Assembly: GCA_016190665.1 (NCBI GenBank)
Contig: JACPQD010000038.1
Span: 1-64,000 of the forward strand
DNA length: 64,000 nucleotides
From: Chloroflexota bacterium
Lineage (GTDB): Bacteria > Chloroflexota > Dehalococcoidia > JACPQD01
Reading direction: 5' to 3'
Shown here: positions 16,899 to 27,047 of the stretch, one piece after another
Numbering within the stretch: the first letter of the stretch is position 1
How the letters are laid out: every line of letters starts with the position of its first letter
Notes under the pieces: model-generated
Databases searched by the model: none
Told to the model about the DNA's origin: nothing
What the model saw: only the letters and a program-made list of their open reading frames with translations
Program-made: the position numbers and the translations under genes

Positions 16899-18632
16899 AT
16901 GCTGACGCGTATGCGCGTGAGACGATTCAAGAAGCTGAGAGATGTGGATATCGAGCTGGGCAAGTCGGTCGTTCTCATCGGGCCAAACAACTCGGGAAAG
17001 ACGGCCGCTCTGCAGGCGCTCGCTCTCTGGGACATCGGTTTGAAGCGGTGGAACGAAAGACGCGGCGGAAAGACGTCACCGGAGAAGCGCCCTGGCGTTA
17101 CCATAAACCGAAAGGACCTTATTTCGATCCCTGTTCCCAACTCGAACCTCCTGTGGAGCGAATTGCATGTGCGCGACATCTTTCGAGCCGATCATCACAA
17201 ACCGCACACTCAGAACGTCCGTATCGACATTGTCGTCGATGGGCTGACGGAGGGGAAAACCTGGTCTTGCGGCCTCGAGTTTGACTTCGCTAATGAGGAA
17301 TCATTCTACTGCCGTCCGTTGCGTTTGAGCGAGGGCCTTCAACCAGAGAGACAGCCCATCCCTACCGAGGCCTCGACTATTCGAGTCGCCTATCTTCCAC
17401 CCATGTCCGGCCTGGCCGCAGAAGAGCCGAAGTGGGAGCCGGGGCGAATCAATGTCCTTTTGGGGGAAGGACAAACGGCTCAAGTGCTGCGCAATCTGTG
17501 TTATCAAATTCACGAGAATCCTCGTGCCACTTCCGACTGGAAAGAGTTAACCGGCCATCTTGAGGACCTCTTCGGGCTAACACTGGACGCGCCACAGTAC
17601 ATACAGGAACGTGGCGAGATTACAATGACATACAAGGAAGAGGGAGGCACCCGGCTGGACATTTCTTCTTCCGGACGCGGTTTTCAACAGACTCTGCTGT
17701 TGCTGGCTCACCTCTATGCTAACCCACGGACGGTCTTGCTCCTGGATGAACCAGATGCCCATCTCGAAGTCCTTCGCCAACGGCAGATTTATCAATTGCT
17801 GACGCGGGTGGCTGATAAACAAGGCTCCCAGCTCATCGCTGCCAGCCATTCCGAGGTCGTGCTCAACGAAGCCGCTGATCGTGATGTGGTCATAGCTTTC
17901 ATCGGTAAGCCCCATCGCATTGACGACCGCGGAAGCCAGGTGTTGAAGGCGCTCAGAGAGATCGGGTTCGAGCAATACGCCATGGCGGAGCAGACCGGCT
18001 GGGTACTGTATCTGGAAGGCTCAACCGATCTTACTGTCCTGAAGGCATTCGCGGATACTCTGGGCCATCCCGCCGCCAGACTTCTGGACCTGCCGTTTGT
18101 CTACTATGTTGGTAATCAACCCCCCCGCGTGCGAGAACACTTCTGGGGCTTGCGGGAGGCAAAGAAGGACCTGGTAGGGATCGCTCTGTTTGATCGCCTT
18201 GATCGAGCATTGCCCGATGACCTGGGTGCGGAGGGATATCAGTGGAAGCGCCGGGAGATTGAGAACTACTTGTGCATGGAAGAGGTCTTGCTGGCGTATG
18301 CGCGTCACGAACAGCCGAACGATCTTTTCGGATCAGCAGAGGCCAATCGCCGCCAGGATGTCATGCAAAGAGCGATCGCCCAGATCTCAAACGCGCTGAA
18401 GACCCTGGGCAAACCTGACCCCTGGTCGCCTGATATCAAGGCAACCGATGACTTCCTGGACCCTCTTTGCGAACTCTACTTCAAGGAACTGGGGTTGCCC
18501 AACCTGTTGTGTAAGAGTGATTACCACGTGCTTGCTCGCCTGGTGCCAAAAGACAGGATTGACCCCGAAGTGGCCGACAGGCTGGATGACATAGTTCGGG
18601 TCGCCACCCAAGCGCGGCCAAGGCAGGATTGA
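16899..18632 (+). CDS. AAA ATPase with C-terminal TOPRIM-like domain (OLD-family-like)
   Basis: Walker A VLIGPNNSGKTAAL, LLLLDEPDAHLE, ASHSEVVLNEA, then LYLEGSTDLTVLKAF and GIALFDRLDR consistent with TOPRIM motifs. Confidence 0.78.
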   Translation: MLTRMRVRRFKKLRDVDIELGKSVVLIGPNNSGKTAALQALALWDIGLKRWNERRGGKTSPEKRPGVTINRKDLISIPVPNSNLLWSELHVRDIFRADHHKPHTQNVRIDIVVDGLTEGKTWSCGLEFDFANEESFYCRPLRLSEGLQPERQPIPTEASTIRVAYLPPMSGLAAEEPKWEPGRINVLLGEGQTAQVLRNLCYQIHENPRATSDWKELTGHLEDLFGLTLDAPQYIQERGEITMTYKEEGGTRLDISSSGRGFQQTLLLLAHLYANPRTVLLLDEPDAHLEVLRQRQIYQLLTRVADKQGSQLIAASHSEVVLNEAADRDVVIAFIGKPHRIDDRGSQVLKALREIGFEQYAMAEQTGWVLYLEGSTDLTVLKAFADTLGHPAARLLDLPFVYYVGNQPPRVREHFWGLREAKKDLVGIALFDRLDRALPDDLGAEGYQWKRREIENYLCMEEVLLAYARHEQPNDLFGSAEANRRQDVMQRAIAQISNALKTLGKPDPWSPDIKATDDFLDPLCELYFKELGLPNLLCKSDYHVLARLVPKDRIDPEVADRLDDIVRVATQARPRQD

Positions 18633-18853: not shown

Positions 18854-20473
18854 CTACCCGGCTTCTTGCCCGTCCAGCTGTTCGCCCAAGAGCTCGCCGT
18901 CGACAGAGGGTTCTTCGCCACGCTCATCGATGTCAAAGTGTCGCTCAAAGAACTCTCGTTGCACGCGCTCAAGGAGCGGGTGAGCGGAGGCAAGGCCAGC
19001 TTGTCTGGAGTACCTGGTGAGGAAGTCGTGGAAGTCTTCCGCATGGCCTTTCGACTCCCTTTCGCGTTTCCTGTCGTTGAGCAATTGGCTCATGGGCACC
19101 GTACTGTTCCAAGAGGACAGGACTTCGAGTTCGGCGATACCCATCAAGTGGTAGTCTTCGAACGAGGCCAAGCCTCGATCTTCGAACGCCTTGTGGGCCA
19201 GGTCTCGGTAATGCGATTCGAAAAAGAGCGAATCGCACATGACAATCACGGCCTGGGTGCTCTTGATTTTCGTGGCATCAATGCCCATCCTGCCCTCGAC
19301 GAAATCGCGAATCTTCTCAGGGTACTTCGCTACAGTCTCGGCGAATATGCGCTCCGTGTCTTTGGCTAGATCCTCTCGGGCCGCGGAGACCCGGCTATCC
19401 ATCCGCAATCTGGAACTCCTGCATTCGAAGAGGATCGCTGTCTCGCCATCCAGCACAATCCAGTCGGGCCCTCGCCGCTCCGATTTTCCGTAGCGTGGCT
19501 CCGGTATCACGCTATCGGGGCCAAAGGTCCATTTGAGCAGACGACCGACGTAATGCTCGAACAGCCTGCCAAAGTAGTCAAGGAAAGCGTTGCCCTGGGC
19601 GCTCCGAAACAGGTCCATCAGGTCGAAGTACAGACCCTCTGAGATACGATAGGCCAGCAGCCTGGGGACGGGCACGATAAGTTCGTGGTTCACCGCGATC
19701 AGTGGGCGTTTGTTCAACACGTTAAACTCAGTCTTGATGTAGAGGGGATCTGTAACGCGAAACTCCGCAGAAAGCTGCCGAAACTGTTCGTACGTGGCGG
19801 ACGCTCTCGACAGGAATTTGTCACAGTCTTCCTGGCTCACCGCGTCCGCAAGCTTACCCGTAGCAGCGAAGTATCGCGTTAGCGACGTATGGTGCAACGC
19901 ACCCGCGAAATAGCCGAAGCCGATTACCATGAACTTCTCAAGTCCGATGCCAGTTGCGTCAAGCCATTCAGCTTCAAGGTCAAAGGGTCGGCCTGAGACC
20001 TCCCGGTTGCCATCAATCAGTAACAGCTTGGTTCTTGGGATCATCGAGCTCAGACGCTCTTGCCAGACGAATTGCTCCCAGGAGACGCGCACCATGGTGC
20101 TGCGAGGGTCCGCTTTTGGCCCCCTTGGGTTCACCGATGCATCGCGCAAATTCGCGTGCATGAAAGCTAGACCGCGCAAGTCGTCCAGGGTTGCGGTTTC
20201 CTGGCGCATGTCTGACGACCGAAGGATAGATGTCTTGGCGAGAAAACTCAGGGTCCAAGGAGCCAGGTACACCTTGCATCCAGGCAGTACTCCGTAACGG
20301 CGACTCGGAGGAACGTTGATGAGCGTCTCCGATAGGGGCCGCCCATCAAGCCGGTTGGCAACGACGTTGCACATTTTCAGGAAATCGCGAACCCGAAAGC
20401 GGTTGATTCTAGTGAGTAGATCACTGTACGACGTTGGGGGTCCTAGCGGGATTTGATTGACCACAAACTCCAT
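18854..20473 (-). CDS. Hypothetical protein with PD-(D/E)xK nuclease-like motif
   Basis: LFEHYVGRLLKWTF...GPDWIVLDGETAILFECRSSRL resembles an E/PD/ExR nuclease core; start MEFVVNQIPLG at 20473 with aggggtgag upstream (alternative ATG 20503). Confidence 0.6.
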   Translation of the reverse strand: MEFVVNQIPLGPPTSYSDLLTRINRFRVRDFLKMCNVVANRLDGRPLSETLINVPPSRRYGVLPGCKVYLAPWTLSFLAKTSILRSSDMRQETATLDDLRGLAFMHANLRDASVNPRGPKADPRSTMVRVSWEQFVWQERLSSMIPRTKLLLIDGNREVSGRPFDLEAEWLDATGIGLEKFMVIGFGYFAGALHHTSLTRYFAATGKLADAVSQEDCDKFLSRASATYEQFRQLSAEFRVTDPLYIKTEFNVLNKRPLIAVNHELIVPVPRLLAYRISEGLYFDLMDLFRSAQGNAFLDYFGRLFEHYVGRLLKWTFGPDSVIPEPRYGKSERRGPDWIVLDGETAILFECRSSRLRMDSRVSAAREDLAKDTERIFAETVAKYPEKIRDFVEGRMGIDATKIKSTQAVIVMCDSLFFESHYRDLAHKAFEDRGLASFEDYHLMGIAELEVLSSWNSTVPMSQLLNDRKRERESKGHAEDFHDFLTRYSRQAGLASAHPLLERVQREFFERHFDIDERGEEPSVDGELLGEQLDGQEAG

Positions 20474-20682
20474 CGGTTGCTCACCCCTATTCAACGGCTG
20501 CAAGTCGGCGTCACCAGCGGTATTGCTAGATTACCCCACGTGAAGAGGGGGGGAAGATCTACGCTCCGAATTCGCTGTCCCACTGGCCGGGCGCCGCACA
20601 AACGCGAGCTACACCCAGACCTGCAGATGTGCGGGGAAGCCGCTGCCCAGATGCCCGCGCAGCCAGACGAATTCTGGGCTAG

Positions 20683-21417
20683 TCAACGGGAAAGGCGCTG
20701 GTTGATGAAAGCAACGGTGTTCTCGTACTTCTCTCTCACGCCTCGGTGCAGCTGGTCCAACGATCCGAAAGTCTTCTTGAAGGGATAGTAGAAGGTATCC
20801 AAGTTGATTGGCGCCGAAACGGGGAAGTTCTTTCGGTGCGTTTCAACCCAGTCGACCACGTATGAGGTTTCCGTCCCGCCGCGCTTCACCGGAACCTCCC
20901 AGGGAATAACCGCCTCGTTGCCTCTGCCAGATAGTATGGGTATGGCCAGAGCGCGGTTGGCGACAGCTTTGTCGACTCTAATTCCGAGCCACTGAGACGC
21001 TTCGCCCAGCCGATAGGCGCTCAAAAGTGCCGGACCAGCGAACAGATTGCGACCAAGATCAAACTTGAATTGGCCGTGTGCAATTCCACCCCGGAGCGGC
21101 ACGCAATAGCTCAAGGCTTTGGAGAAGAGTTCTGTGACCAGGAGAATCATGGCATAAGTATCAGGTGGGTCGTCAGCAACACTGAACACGATGATCGTAT
21201 CAGAAAACATATAGGAACGCACTCTGTCGCGGATAATCTCGCCACCCTCAGTCAGCATGATCTGCAGACTAAGCCGTTCCTCCTTGGCATCGCATAGCTT
21301 GGAAAGAAGTTCCCATGCGATGTCCGGGTCGCGGGCAGTCAGCTCGCTCATTCCCAACATGTCGAGGTGCGCTACATATCGCAACGAATGCTGACTGAGT
21401 GCGCCCCAGCGCTGCAT
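20683..21417 (-). CDS. Class III nucleotide cyclase-like protein (Pycsar-cyclase-like candidate)
   Basis: Likely start ATG at 21417 (cgggagtcatcaATG); LRYVAHLDMLGMSEL, YMFSDTIIVFS, VPLRGGIAHGQF, FAGPALLSAYRLGEASQWLGIRV match the two-metal Asp and downstream pattern of class III cyclases. The longer ORF-track start (22011) overlaps the divergent methylase and is rejected. Confidence 0.6.
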   Translation of the reverse strand: MQRWGALSQHSLRYVAHLDMLGMSELTARDPDIAWELLSKLCDAKEERLSLQIMLTEGGEIIRDRVRSYMFSDTIIVFSVADDPPDTYAMILLVTELFSKALSYCVPLRGGIAHGQFKFDLGRNLFAGPALLSAYRLGEASQWLGIRVDKAVANRALAIPILSGRGNEAVIPWEVPVKRGGTETSYVVDWVETHRKNFPVSAPINLDTFYYPFKKTFGSLDQLHRGVREKYENTVAFINQRLSR

Positions 21418-21537
21418 TGATGACTCCCGTTCGTCTTCATCAAGCTTGACAAGAACACGAAGACAGTCTATAACAAAGCGGATGTTATGCGCAAGACGAC
21501 GACCTTTGGTCCGCGCTGTGTCTAGGAGGATCCCGCT

Positions 21538-23631
21538 ATGCCCGAACCAGTCCGCTGGGGACCAGATAACCCGCACCCGCTCTCCAGGATGAAGACGGAG
21601 CTTATCTGGGAGGGCAAGTACGACGAGTACGGCAACCGCCGCCCGATAAGGCTGCCCGCTTCGCCACTGCCCCTCCAGCGCATCGAGACCATCGACGAGC
21701 CCCACGACCGCGAGAAGGCCCGCCAGCTTGACATGTTCGACGAGGCGGCCTTCGCCCGGAAGGCCCACCAAGACGACTTCCGCAACGTGCTCATCTGGGG
21801 CGACAACAAGCTGGCCATGGCCTCTCTCCTGGAGCAGTTCCGCGGCAAGATCGACCTCATTTACATCGACCCGCCCTTCGACGTGGGCGCCGACTTCACC
21901 ATGCAGGTGCAGGTGGGCGATGAAGCGGAGGCCCTCCAAAAGGAACAGTCCGTTCTTGAAGCAGTGGCTTATAGGGACACCTGGGGCAAGGGGACGGACT
22001 CCTACCTGCACATGATGTACGAGCGTCTCACCCTGATGCGGGATTTATCGAGTGATGAGGCAAGTATCTACGTGCACTGCGACTACCGCGTTAACTCCCA
22101 CCTCCGTTTGATCCTTGATGACATTCTCTCTCCGTTGAACATCAGAAACGAAATAATCTGGCGCAGAGCGAACGCTCACAACGATCCCGGCCGCTGTGGA
22201 ATCATAACTGACACGATTCTTTACTACTCGCGCGGCATAAAGCCGGTCTGGAATGATCAATTCACACCGTATTCTGACGAGTACGTCGCATCGCACTGGG
22301 CGAAGGCCGATGAAGAGGGAGGGAGATTTCGCCTAATACCGCTAGACGCCCCAAGGCATGGCAGCGGCGGCAGCTTGCTTTACGAGTGGAAAGGCAAGTG
22401 GCCGGCACCTTCCCGTACGTGGGCGTATGTCCGCGAGAAGATGGAACAGTTTGACAGAGAAGGCAGAATTGTTTACACAAAGAACGGAACCCCTTGCCTG
22501 AAAAGGTACATGGACGAGTCGCCTGGCTTGCCGCTACAGAACTTATGGGAGGATATCCCGCCCGTCAACCCTATGGCGCTCGAGCGGCTTGGTTACGATA
22601 CGCAGAAGCCGGAAGCACTCCTACAGCGAATCATCAAAGCTTCCTCAAACGAAGGCGATCTGGTCGCCGACTTCTTCTGCGGCTCAGGCACGACGCTGGC
22701 CGTGGCCGAGAAGCTGGGGCGCCGCTGCATAGGCGTGGACCTGGGCCGCTATGCCATTCACACCACGCGGAAGCGCCTTATCCAGGTGCAGCGGGAGCTG
22801 CATGGGGCGGGCAAGCCCTATCGCTCCTTCGACGTGTATAACCTCGGCCGCTACGAGCGCCAGTGGTGGCAGTTGGAGCGGCTGAAGGGGGCCAACACGG
22901 AGCATCGCGCCATCGTCCTGCAGTTCTATAAGGCGGCGCCGCTGAAGGGCGCGCCCCATCCCCTCCTCCACGGCACAAGGCAAGGCGCCTACGTGCACGT
23001 GGACGAAATCGATGGCATCTTCACCTTCGCGGAGCTTCTGCCCGTGGCGCAGGCCGCCCAGGCGGCGGGCGCCCGCGAGCTGCACTGCCTGGCCTGGGAG
23101 TTCGAGATGGAGTTGGCCCTGAAGAAACAGGCCGTGGAGGCGGAGACCGGCCTGACCATCCGCCTCAAATACATCCCGCGCGAGATCATGGAGCCCAGCC
23201 GCAGCGAATGCCAGTTCTTCGAGGCCGGGCACCTGGAAGTCAAGCCCATCGTCAACGGCAGGAAGGTGGACGTGCAACTGGTGCGCTTCACCCCCGCCCT
23301 GGCCGAGGCGCCGGAGGCGGAACTGGCCGCGCTACGGGAGCGCGCCGTCAGGTCCCCCTTCGATTTCATCGATTTCTGGGCGGTGGACTTTACCTGGAGC
23401 GAGGGCAAGCCCTTCGAGCACCACTGGCAGGACTTCCGCACGCGGAAGGACCGTTCGCTGAAGACCAGGACCGATATCGGCTGGGAGTACCCCACTTCTC
23501 CCCCCGTGGGCCCGCTGCAGTCTCCCCCCGTGGACGGGGGGACTAAGGGGGGACAAAGGCATCGTATCTGCGTGAAGGTGATCGACGTCTTCGGCGTGGA
23601 CACCACTACCGCCATTGAGGTGGAGGTGTAG
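21538..23631 (+). CDS. Type III restriction-modification DNA methyltransferase (Mod)
   Basis: IDLIYIDPPFDVGADF (motif IV), VADFFCGSGTTLAVAEKLGRRCIGVDL (motif I), beta-class order; aggagg RBS. Confidence 0.92.
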   Translation: MPEPVRWGPDNPHPLSRMKTELIWEGKYDEYGNRRPIRLPASPLPLQRIETIDEPHDREKARQLDMFDEAAFARKAHQDDFRNVLIWGDNKLAMASLLEQFRGKIDLIYIDPPFDVGADFTMQVQVGDEAEALQKEQSVLEAVAYRDTWGKGTDSYLHMMYERLTLMRDLSSDEASIYVHCDYRVNSHLRLILDDILSPLNIRNEIIWRRANAHNDPGRCGIITDTILYYSRGIKPVWNDQFTPYSDEYVASHWAKADEEGGRFRLIPLDAPRHGSGGSLLYEWKGKWPAPSRTWAYVREKMEQFDREGRIVYTKNGTPCLKRYMDESPGLPLQNLWEDIPPVNPMALERLGYDTQKPEALLQRIIKASSNEGDLVADFFCGSGTTLAVAEKLGRRCIGVDLGRYAIHTTRKRLIQVQRELHGAGKPYRSFDVYNLGRYERQWWQLERLKGANTEHRAIVLQFYKAAPLKGAPHPLLHGTRQGAYVHVDEIDGIFTFAELLPVAQAAQAAGARELHCLAWEFEMELALKKQAVEAETGLTIRLKYIPREIMEPSRSECQFFEAGHLEVKPIVNGRKVDVQLVRFTPALAEAPEAELAALRERAVRSPFDFIDFWAVDFTWSEGKPFEHHWQDFRTRKDRSLKTRTDIGWEYPTSPPVGPLQSPPVDGGTKGGQRHRICVKVIDVFGVDTTTAIEVEV

Positions 23632-23633
23632 CC

Positions 23634-26600
23634 GTGCCCTTCGAGGTCACCGAGAGCAACGCGGCCGCCCTGGAGCCCCTCTTCAAGCCCTGGGAGGAGC
23701 CCGTCCAGCATCGCCTGCCCAATCCCGAGCACGGCGGGCCGGCCGTTGTCGCCCCCGGCCGCCGGCCCAGCAAGTGCCTGCTGGTACGCGCCATCCGGGC
23801 CGAGGTGGACGGCTGGCGGCGGGGCCTCTACGCCGGCGTCAGCGATACGTCCCGCGATCTCCTGAACTTCTGGTTCAATACCGAGCACCAGGTTGAAGAC
23901 GACGACGGCAACAGCGTCCCCTTCCGCTACCACTGGGCGCAGCGCGAGGCCATCGAGACGATCATCTACCTTTACGAAATGCGGGGTATCCGCAGCGTGG
24001 CGGCGCTGCTCACGGAGCTCGGCGGCGACTCCCTCGCCGACCTGGCCTTGGGCATACATCCGGATGAAGACCGCTGGCCCAAGGACTGCTGCAAGATCGC
24101 TACCGGCGGGGGCAAGACCAAGGTTATGAGCCTGGCCATAGTGTGGAGCTACTTCCACCAGGCCTACGAGCCAGGCTCCAGCCTGGCGCAGCATTTCGTG
24201 ATCATCGCCCCGAACCTGACCGTGTACGAGCGACTGAAGGACGATTTCGAAAACTGCGTTATCTTCCACAAGGACCCGCTGCTGCCAGAGGACTGGAAAT
24301 CCGACTTCCGGATGCAGGTCGTGTTGCAGGACGAGCCGGGCGGGGCGGCTACGACCGGGGCGATTTACCTGACCAACATTCACCGCCTCTACGAGAAGCG
24401 CGAGAATGGCGAGGAGAGCGGTCCTGGCTCTCTTTTCGGCCCGGCGGTCAAGCGAGCGCAGGCCTTGGACACGGGCGCGGCGTTGCGGGAGCGGATCGCC
24501 TGCCATCCCAGCCTCATGGTCCTCAACGACGAAGCGCACCACCTCCACGACCCCGACCTCGCCTGGAACCGCGCCATCGATACCCTGCACAGCCAGTGCG
24601 TGAGCAAGGGCAACAGCGGCATCTGCCTGCAACTGGACTTCACGGCCACGCCGAAGCACAATGATGGGACGTTCTTCCATCACGTCGTCTGCGACTTCCC
24701 GCTGGGCGAGGCTGTAGACGCAGGCATCGTGAAGGTGCCCGTGCTGGGCGAGTCCGATGAGCTGGTGCCCCACGGCGACGCGCGGACGCCCGCCCACGAG
24801 CGCTACTCCATGCATCTCCAGCTCGGCTACCAGCGCTACGCGAAGACCTATGAGGAGTTGAGCCGCGTCCGCAAGCCCATCCTCTTCGTCATGACCGAGG
24901 ACTCCGACGCGGCGAACAAGGTCGCCGGTTACCTGGACAGCGACCAGTTCCCCTTACTCAAGGACAGGGTGCTGAACATTCACACCCGGCTCAAGGGGCG
25001 CGTCAAGACCTATACGCGCGGCGGCCGCGAGGTCAAGGAGTTCGTGGAGAACGAGACGGCGATGAAGCCCGACGACCTCCGCGCCCTGCGCGAGATGTCT
25101 CGCGAACTGGACCGGAAGGACAGCAAGTTTCGCTGCGTGGTCTCGGTGATGATGCTGCGCGAGGGCTGGGACGTGCGCAACGTTACCACAGTCGTTCCCT
25201 TGCGCCCCTATTCCGCGAAGTCCGGCATCCTGCCCGAACAGACGCTCGGCCGCGGCCTGAGGCGCATGGACCCTGGGGGGAACACGCCGGAGCTGGTTAC
25301 TGTGGTGGATCACCCCGCGTTCCGCAAGCTGTATGAGGACGAGCTGGCCCAGGAGGGCCTCGACATCCCTGTGCTGCCCATCCGCGAAGCCTTGAAGCAG
25401 AGCGTCACAATCTTTGTGGACCACCAGCACAAGCCAGTGCCAGGGCTGGAGGTGGAGATTCCCCTGATCTCGGATGCTGTGCAGACGGCGTCTGAGTTCT
25501 CGGGCCTGAGCAGCGATGAGGTCAGGAGATACTTCCAGGCTCGCTTTCACCCGCTGCCGATCGGCAAGAAGAAGGAAGGCCCCATCGAATACAAGGAAAG
25601 GCATCTGTTCACCGACGAGGTCGTCTCTCGCATGCAGTTGGACGCCGGGCTGCTGAGCAACGCCTGGTCAGCCCCGGGATATTTCGCCCAGATGCTGGGC
25701 CGCGCCTGCCGCCTGAGCAATCCGCATCAGATCCTCACGCCCCTGATAGAGGAGTTCCTGTCCAAGTCCCTCTTTGAGCGGGAAGTCGATCTCTTCGCAG
25801 GTGAGGTTGACCACCGCATGCGCGATGTTGACGTTGTCGAGCATGTCCGCGCCACGTTTACGCCCCTCATCCTCGCCAGAACGGTCAGACGGGAAGAGCG
25901 CAAGCGCATCAGCCAGGGGCAGCCGCTGTCCAAGTGGAAGCCCTATCAGGCCTCCAGCACGGAGCGCCGCCCCGCCGTGCCCGGCCAGCGCACCATGTTC
26001 AACCTTGTGCCTTGCGACAACGAGTTCGAGCAACAGTTCGCTGATTTCTGCGACATGGCTTCCGATGTGGCGGCTTTCGCTAAGAACGCCGGACCGCAGA
26101 AGCTGATGATCGACTACCTCCGCCCCGACGGGCAGCGCGGGCTATACGTGCCGGACTTCCTGGTGCGCTGCGCCGACGGTGGCTACTTCGTCGCGGAGCT
26201 GAAGGGGAGAGCGGATAACCTCGTTCCTGTGAAAGCGCGCACCGCCGTTGAATGGTGCAAGGCGGCATCGGTGGGCAAGCCGCAGTACAAATACCTCTAC
26301 GTGCCCTATCACCTTTTCCAACAGGGCGGGGCGGCGACAGTGGAAGAGCTGCATCGCGCTTGCGCGCCGCATCTCAATGCTTTGCTCGAAGAGGCGAAGA
26401 CGGGCCAGCAACAGCTTCCCCTGTTCGAGGCCACGGTCCAGAAGGAGGCTGCCGACCTATTCAGTCGGCTCCTGGACAAGGCGGGCGTGGGCGCCCTTCC
26501 GGCGCCTCTGGAGGCGTCAATGCGCCAGGCCGTCACCGTCCTGGACTACGCGGTGCGCTCCAAAATGGCGGACTTCGCCCATGCCTTCCAGCCGCTTCTG

Positions 26601-27047
26601 CAACCCCTTGACGAGTACGCACTGCGCATCCTGGATGCCAGGCTCCGGCCGCTCATACCCTCCGAGGCCCGCGCCCGTGATGACTATTTCAATCCTTACC
26701 TGGGAAATTTGGCACCTCGTGACAGAGGTCTACTGGAAAGGAACCAGCGCTACCTGAGGGACAACCTCGTTTTCGGCCGTCCGATCCAGAGGCTGGGCAC
26801 GCTGGTCTTCTGCCTGGGCTACGCAGCTCACGGCGCTGCGAAGGCTGCGGCGGTGTGGGTTGGTGTGGCGCAGGCCTTTTCGGGGAAAGACATGGGGGAC
26901 CTGTATGAGGAGCTAGAATCGGTCAACCGGTTCCGCAACACCCGTGTGGCGCACGTGGAAGAAAAGCTCGAGAACGCCGACGAGGCCTGGGAAGCCATGA
27001 CCGCCTGGCTACGCTGCCTGGGTAGGATGGCCGGTGTTGCAGCCTAG
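23634..27047 (+). CDS. Type III restriction enzyme (Res) helicase-nuclease with C-terminal HEPN-like extension
   Basis: Walker A ATGGGKTKV, VLNDEAHHLHDPD, PEQTLGRGLRRMDP, VPDFLVRCADGGYFVAELKG; C-terminus VNRFRNTRVAHVE. Confidence 0.9.
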   Translation: MPFEVTESNAAALEPLFKPWEEPVQHRLPNPEHGGPAVVAPGRRPSKCLLVRAIRAEVDGWRRGLYAGVSDTSRDLLNFWFNTEHQVEDDDGNSVPFRYHWAQREAIETIIYLYEMRGIRSVAALLTELGGDSLADLALGIHPDEDRWPKDCCKIATGGGKTKVMSLAIVWSYFHQAYEPGSSLAQHFVIIAPNLTVYERLKDDFENCVIFHKDPLLPEDWKSDFRMQVVLQDEPGGAATTGAIYLTNIHRLYEKRENGEESGPGSLFGPAVKRAQALDTGAALRERIACHPSLMVLNDEAHHLHDPDLAWNRAIDTLHSQCVSKGNSGICLQLDFTATPKHNDGTFFHHVVCDFPLGEAVDAGIVKVPVLGESDELVPHGDARTPAHERYSMHLQLGYQRYAKTYEELSRVRKPILFVMTEDSDAANKVAGYLDSDQFPLLKDRVLNIHTRLKGRVKTYTRGGREVKEFVENETAMKPDDLRALREMSRELDRKDSKFRCVVSVMMLREGWDVRNVTTVVPLRPYSAKSGILPEQTLGRGLRRMDPGGNTPELVTVVDHPAFRKLYEDELAQEGLDIPVLPIREALKQSVTIFVDHQHKPVPGLEVEIPLISDAVQTASEFSGLSSDEVRRYFQARFHPLPIGKKKEGPIEYKERHLFTDEVVSRMQLDAGLLSNAWSAPGYFAQMLGRACRLSNPHQILTPLIEEFLSKSLFEREVDLFAGEVDHRMRDVDVVEHVRATFTPLILARTVRREERKRISQGQPLSKWKPYQASSTERRPAVPGQRTMFNLVPCDNEFEQQFADFCDMASDVAAFAKNAGPQKLMIDYLRPDGQRGLYVPDFLVRCADGGYFVAELKGRADNLVPVKARTAVEWCKAASVGKPQYKYLYVPYHLFQQGGAATVEELHRACAPHLNALLEEAKTGQQQLPLFEATVQKEAADLFSRLLDKAGVGALPAPLEASMRQAVTVLDYAVRSKMADFAHAFQPLLQPLDEYALRILDARLRPLIPSEARARDDYFNPYLGNLAPRDRGLLERNQRYLRDNLVFGRPIQRLGTLVFCLGYAAHGAAKAAAVWVGVAQAFSGKDMGDLYEELESVNRFRNTRVAHVEEKLENADEAWEAMTAWLRCLGRMAGVAA

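Follow-up and report, generated by a model that had tools for sequence, protein, structure and literature searches.

Class III adenylyl and guanylyl cyclase domains, such as those of CyaC, Rv1900c, Ma1120, and the Rv1625c-type Cya, share a common fold and two metal-binding aspartates. In Pycsar, a stand-alone cyclase of this class (PycC) is found with an effector (PycTM or PycTIR), and the cyclase-effector pairing is conserved. NucC is a CBASS effector activated by a cyclic oligonucleotide and also serves type III CRISPR systems. A further antiphage family, GapS1 (GAPS1), is attributed to Mahata et al. 2024 in PMC12774648. Here, we describe a locus in a 64,000-nucleotide stretch of contig JACPQD010000038.1 from a Chloroflexota bacterium (the window), where a gene for a stand-alone class III cyclase-fold protein lies beside another defense-island gene, an arrangement that resembles Pycsar and that a preliminary description had proposed as a new Pycsar-like module.

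The locus and its island neighbors

The two open reading frames singled out by the preliminary description are present on the reverse strand, namely, a cyclase-fold gene (P0001; positions 20683 to 21417) encoding 244 residues and a GapS1-like gene (P0002; 18854 to 20473) encoding 539 residues. The cyclase gene starts at the ATG at 21417, preceded by a GGGAG motif at about 21424 to 21428, in agreement with the starts of its relatives; a 442-residue reading from an upstream GTG was rejected, the extension being antisense to the type III Mod gene. The GapS1-like gene most likely starts at the ATG at 20473, with a AGGGGTGAG motif ahead of it at about 20480 to 20489, and the alternative TTG start, which would give 549 residues, is less likely. 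Between the cyclase stop codon and this ATG lie 209 nt (20474 to 20682, reverse strand) in which no promoter-like site was found. As previously noted, the island also contains an OLD/AriA-like AAA ATPase gene (AAA_21; 16899 to 18632), in opposite orientation on the forward strand, and a type III restriction-modification (R-M) system. The latter comprises the methyltransferase gene mod (21538 to 23631, forward strand; PADLOC MTase_III, E = 1.6e-289), divergent from the cyclase gene, and the restriction subunit gene res (23634 to 27047, forward strand; ResIII, E = 3e-16). We consider it probable that the cyclase-fold and GapS1-like genes are two separately inherited cargo genes that sit side by side in a defense island with the OLD-like ATPase and the type III R-M system. 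Counting against separate cargo, they share a strand and are 209 nt apart, so that co-transcription is possible.

Fold and active site of the cyclase-like protein

When the AlphaFold model of the 244-residue protein (pLDDT 83.9, pTM 0.85) was compared with PDB structures, the best 50 matches were all class III adenylyl/guanylyl cyclases (top E = 1.4e-6). A nine-member family profile searched against the PDB matched adenylate cyclases only, weakly (best E = 0.0037), and a viral structure library searched with the model gave only remote cyclase-like matches. The cyclase motifs noticed earlier (HLDMLGM, FSDTI, RGGIAHG, and GPALLSAYRLGE) were all found, and the metal-binding aspartates D19 and D73 align in register with those of solved adenylate cyclases; the RxGI..G and G.A..A motifs of class III domains likewise align with the family. 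Across 43 loci, D19 is kept in 41/41 and D73 in 39/41 of the members with letters at these positions, while R109 is invariant (43/43). Given the structure matches, the profile alignment, and the conservation of D19, D73, and R109, a predicted class III nucleotide-cyclase fold with a metal site is well supported, in line with what the preliminary description had anticipated.

The family nonetheless differs from described class III cyclases, with which it shares only about 11 to 19% identity: the window protein has no sensor or transmembrane (TM) domain and no Pfam cyclase match, and the Asn/Arg catalytic pair is mostly lost. The transition-state Asn position is occupied by L132 in the window protein and holds Asn in 4/42 members; the transition-state Arg position, filled by R136 in the window protein, is not conserved, being Arg in 6/42 members. 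The canonical class III Asn/Arg pair was thus not found, and ordinary cyclase chemistry by this family is not assured from its sequences. These replacements, together with a base-specifying position that varies across the family, would suit a degenerate, non-catalytic nucleotide binder acting as a sensor, sponge, or decoy that makes no cyclic nucleotide. We regard such a role as quite unlikely, however, since the metal aspartates and the invariant arginine persist even where members have diverged strongly, pointing to selection on metal-dependent chemistry. As separate cargo, the 244-residue protein would instead be a metal-dependent nucleotidyl cyclase or transferase that stands alone and belongs to an unnamed family. 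Its D19/D73 site probably accepts a nucleoside triphosphate within a head-to-tail dimer, and the protein would then, upon some trigger, make a nucleotide product that serves as an alarm or regulator.

A true Pycsar, in which a diverged PycC would work with a new effector, could likewise account for the stand-alone class III fold, and the aromatic Y69 found at the base-recognition position of the window protein is loosely like the bulky residues of PycC (PMC11224242). However, an aromatic residue is not conserved at this position in the family. In addition, PADLOC gave no PycC match, returning no family at E ≤ 1 for P0001 and none at E ≤ 0.001 for six relatives, and solved PycC chains were not recovered by the family profile search. 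No TM, TIR, or cyclic nucleotide-binding effector was found nearby, and none of these domains was detected in the adjacent P0002. A true Pycsar is therefore highly improbable.

The GapS1-like neighbor

The neighbor had been described as an effector of an unrecognized type with a PD-(D/E)xK-like core. The core is indeed present, with GPDWIV at residue 336 and FECRSS at residue 350 (numbering of the 540-residue P0002), but the protein is not of an unrecognized type. It matches the GapS1 model NF047931 of NCBIfam with E = 5.4e-18 and 65.1 bits over 308 profile positions; this score falls below the curated cut-off of 320 bits and indicates a distant relative, not a called member. Pfam gave nothing for this protein, and apart from GapS1 only sub-threshold, chance-level matches were obtained. 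Although the PD-(D/E)xK-like core appears common to GapS1 and the window protein, the latter is longer, and in an alignment of eight GapS1-like proteins it keeps the D and E of the core but carries Arg at the position of the catalytic Lys; its ECR stands against ECK or EVK in all the others. By profile and alignment, it is a distant, diverged member of the GapS1 family. Consequently, no new effector type is needed at this locus, and the GapS1-like protein would most likely act as a lone nuclease-type antiphage protein. Relatives matching the GapS1 model occur in cyanobacteria, Pseudomonas, Sphingobium, Streptomyces, and others, without an adjacent cyclase. Another GapS1-like gene, with no cyclase near it, lies on a different contig of the same genome (L047:5042-6703, G000:C99) and shows about 28 to 29% identity across the matched region.

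Co-occurrence of the two genes

The surroundings of other members of both families were searched within flanks of up to about 8 kb, which fell below 1 kb where some contigs ended. The GapS1 profile found no match around the 42 other cyclase-family loci (0/42), and the cyclase profile found none around 10 other GapS1-like loci (0/10). The four genomes with the closest cyclase relatives yielded no GapS1-like gene, which is weak evidence because these genomes are metagenome assembled. Among the plasmid records listed, 37 hold a GapS1-like gene and 53 a cyclase-like gene, with no accession in common. A conserved cyclase-GapS1 pair is not supported by these comparisons, unlike the conserved pairing of Pycsar. 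Since the two genes adjoin in no other genome examined, they are better read as two separate defense-island genes than as a two-part alarm system, and there is no evidence that a cyclase product controls the GapS1-like protein. The close cyclase clade of the window is sampled by the five loci found, so a clade-specific GapS1 pairing could be missed, and a functional pair may exist in the window lineage. The preliminary description had held that its proposal would fall if the two genes did not occur together elsewhere or if the neighbor belonged to a known family, and both were found to be the case in this sample. What stands of it is the cyclase fold, the metal ligands, and the nuclease-like core; the paired new module, with a partner now placed in a known family, no conserved pairing in the sample, and none of Pycsar's testable features, is not supported.

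Distribution and neighborhoods of the cyclase-like family

No convincing model was found in Pfam, NCBIfam, or PADLOC for the 244-residue protein or the relatives tested. The sole family match was phrog_23933, whose function is not known (E = 9e-5 for P0001 and down to 3.5e-39 for wider members), and these profile matches place phrog_23933 and the cyclase-fold family in one superfamily, although nearly all the members recovered in this analysis are chromosomal or plasmid-borne. Scanning of a genome collection yielded four relatives with 42 to 59% identity in Betaproteobacteria, Deltaproteobacteria, and Verrucomicrobia, and a fifth close-clade member (L037/L041) came from class-level searches. 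Plasmid searches revealed a large and far more divergent superfamily with the motifs FLDILGF/W, SD, RGGI, and GPA..AY.LE, while scans of viral contigs gave no usable family locus. Judged from these sequences, the family is divergent, unnamed, and carried on plasmids and in defense islands. Two weak matches were discarded, one having no recognizable cyclase-like ORF (L002) and the other being an ordinary cyclase-TPR protein (L077).

The same-strand genes adjoining the family are varied and often defense-related, which supports separate cargo: various other members lie beside TrlF, Dsr1, AbiEii, HsdS, Mrr, PDC-S11, PDC-S57, or NucC-like genes, and most of the rest stand alone. One subgroup neighbors TrlF (L035, L059, and L081), and an HsdS gene, read from the sequence, adjoins the cyclase at L059. 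Dsr1 is found at L024, AbiEii at L086, and a DUF6615 gene at L023. Such varied neighbors are, as far as sequence can tell, the signature of mobile defense-island cargo.

At five loci, however, a same-strand nuclease-fold gene of a different family each time lies directly downstream of the cyclase, within about 210 nt, and its presence at four loci besides the window counts against separate cargo. The downstream gene is GapS1-like in the window, DUF6602/NucC-like at L009:5696-7322 (the closest cyclase relative, 59% identity), T5orf172/PDC-S57 at L041, where it overlaps the cyclase gene, PDC-S11 at L042, and Mrr at L058. This run could point to a two-gene signaling module analogous to Pycsar or CBASS: phage infection would switch on the cyclase, and its nucleotide product would activate the GapS1-like nuclease, with relatives freely exchanging the nuclease partner (NucC-like, Mrr, PDC-S11, GIY-YIG, or GapS1-like). 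The DUF6602 protein at L009 is related to NucC (PDB E = 0.0005), but NucC is of another family than the window's neighbor, and the L009 protein has Ser at the position of the NucC catalytic Glu (VSVK versus LEVK), while ECK is replaced by ECR in the window protein. Furthermore, a downstream nuclease-fold gene is lacking at most of the 43 cyclase loci, and the cyclase frequently stands by itself (L010, L011, and most plasmids). Three or more of the partner types correspond to PADLOC single-gene candidates (PDC-S11, PDC-S57, and PDC-S02), and five is a raw count of loci. We thus consider the two-gene module unlikely. A broader version, in which an unnamed cyclase-like family with an altered active site emits a nucleotide signal that activates interchangeable downstream nuclease-fold effectors (GapS1-like, NucC-like, Mrr, PDC-S11, or GIY-YIG) as a modular alarm distinct from Pycsar and CBASS, seems unlikely. 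The downstream nuclease-fold genes could reflect a swap-in effector theme or ordinary defense-island crowding, and they are one lead.

With the two window genes read as separate cargo, the remaining interest is the unnamed cyclase-like family itself. Its invariant metal ligands, its lack of a curated model, and its home on plasmids and in defense islands make it a reasonable candidate for a nucleotide-signaling component of bacterial immunity, and the 244-residue protein, being small and apparently soluble, should suit assay.

Several members showed individual features. The TrlF family is an AAA-like ATPase, and one of its three cyclase loci lies within a type I R-M cluster with 4-nt overlaps. 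On a Spirosoma plasmid (L034:4158-5969), the cyclase-like domain is part of a 603-residue ORF, the remainder of which matched no known family or second domain. The relative at L012:7941-8411 meets a stop codon soon past its RIGVAHGRF region, owing to a sequencing error or a pseudogene. In Methylobacter (L022:7496-8771), the gene for a 136-residue protein, which may carry a membrane segment at its N terminus, stops about 64 nt short of the cyclase-like gene.
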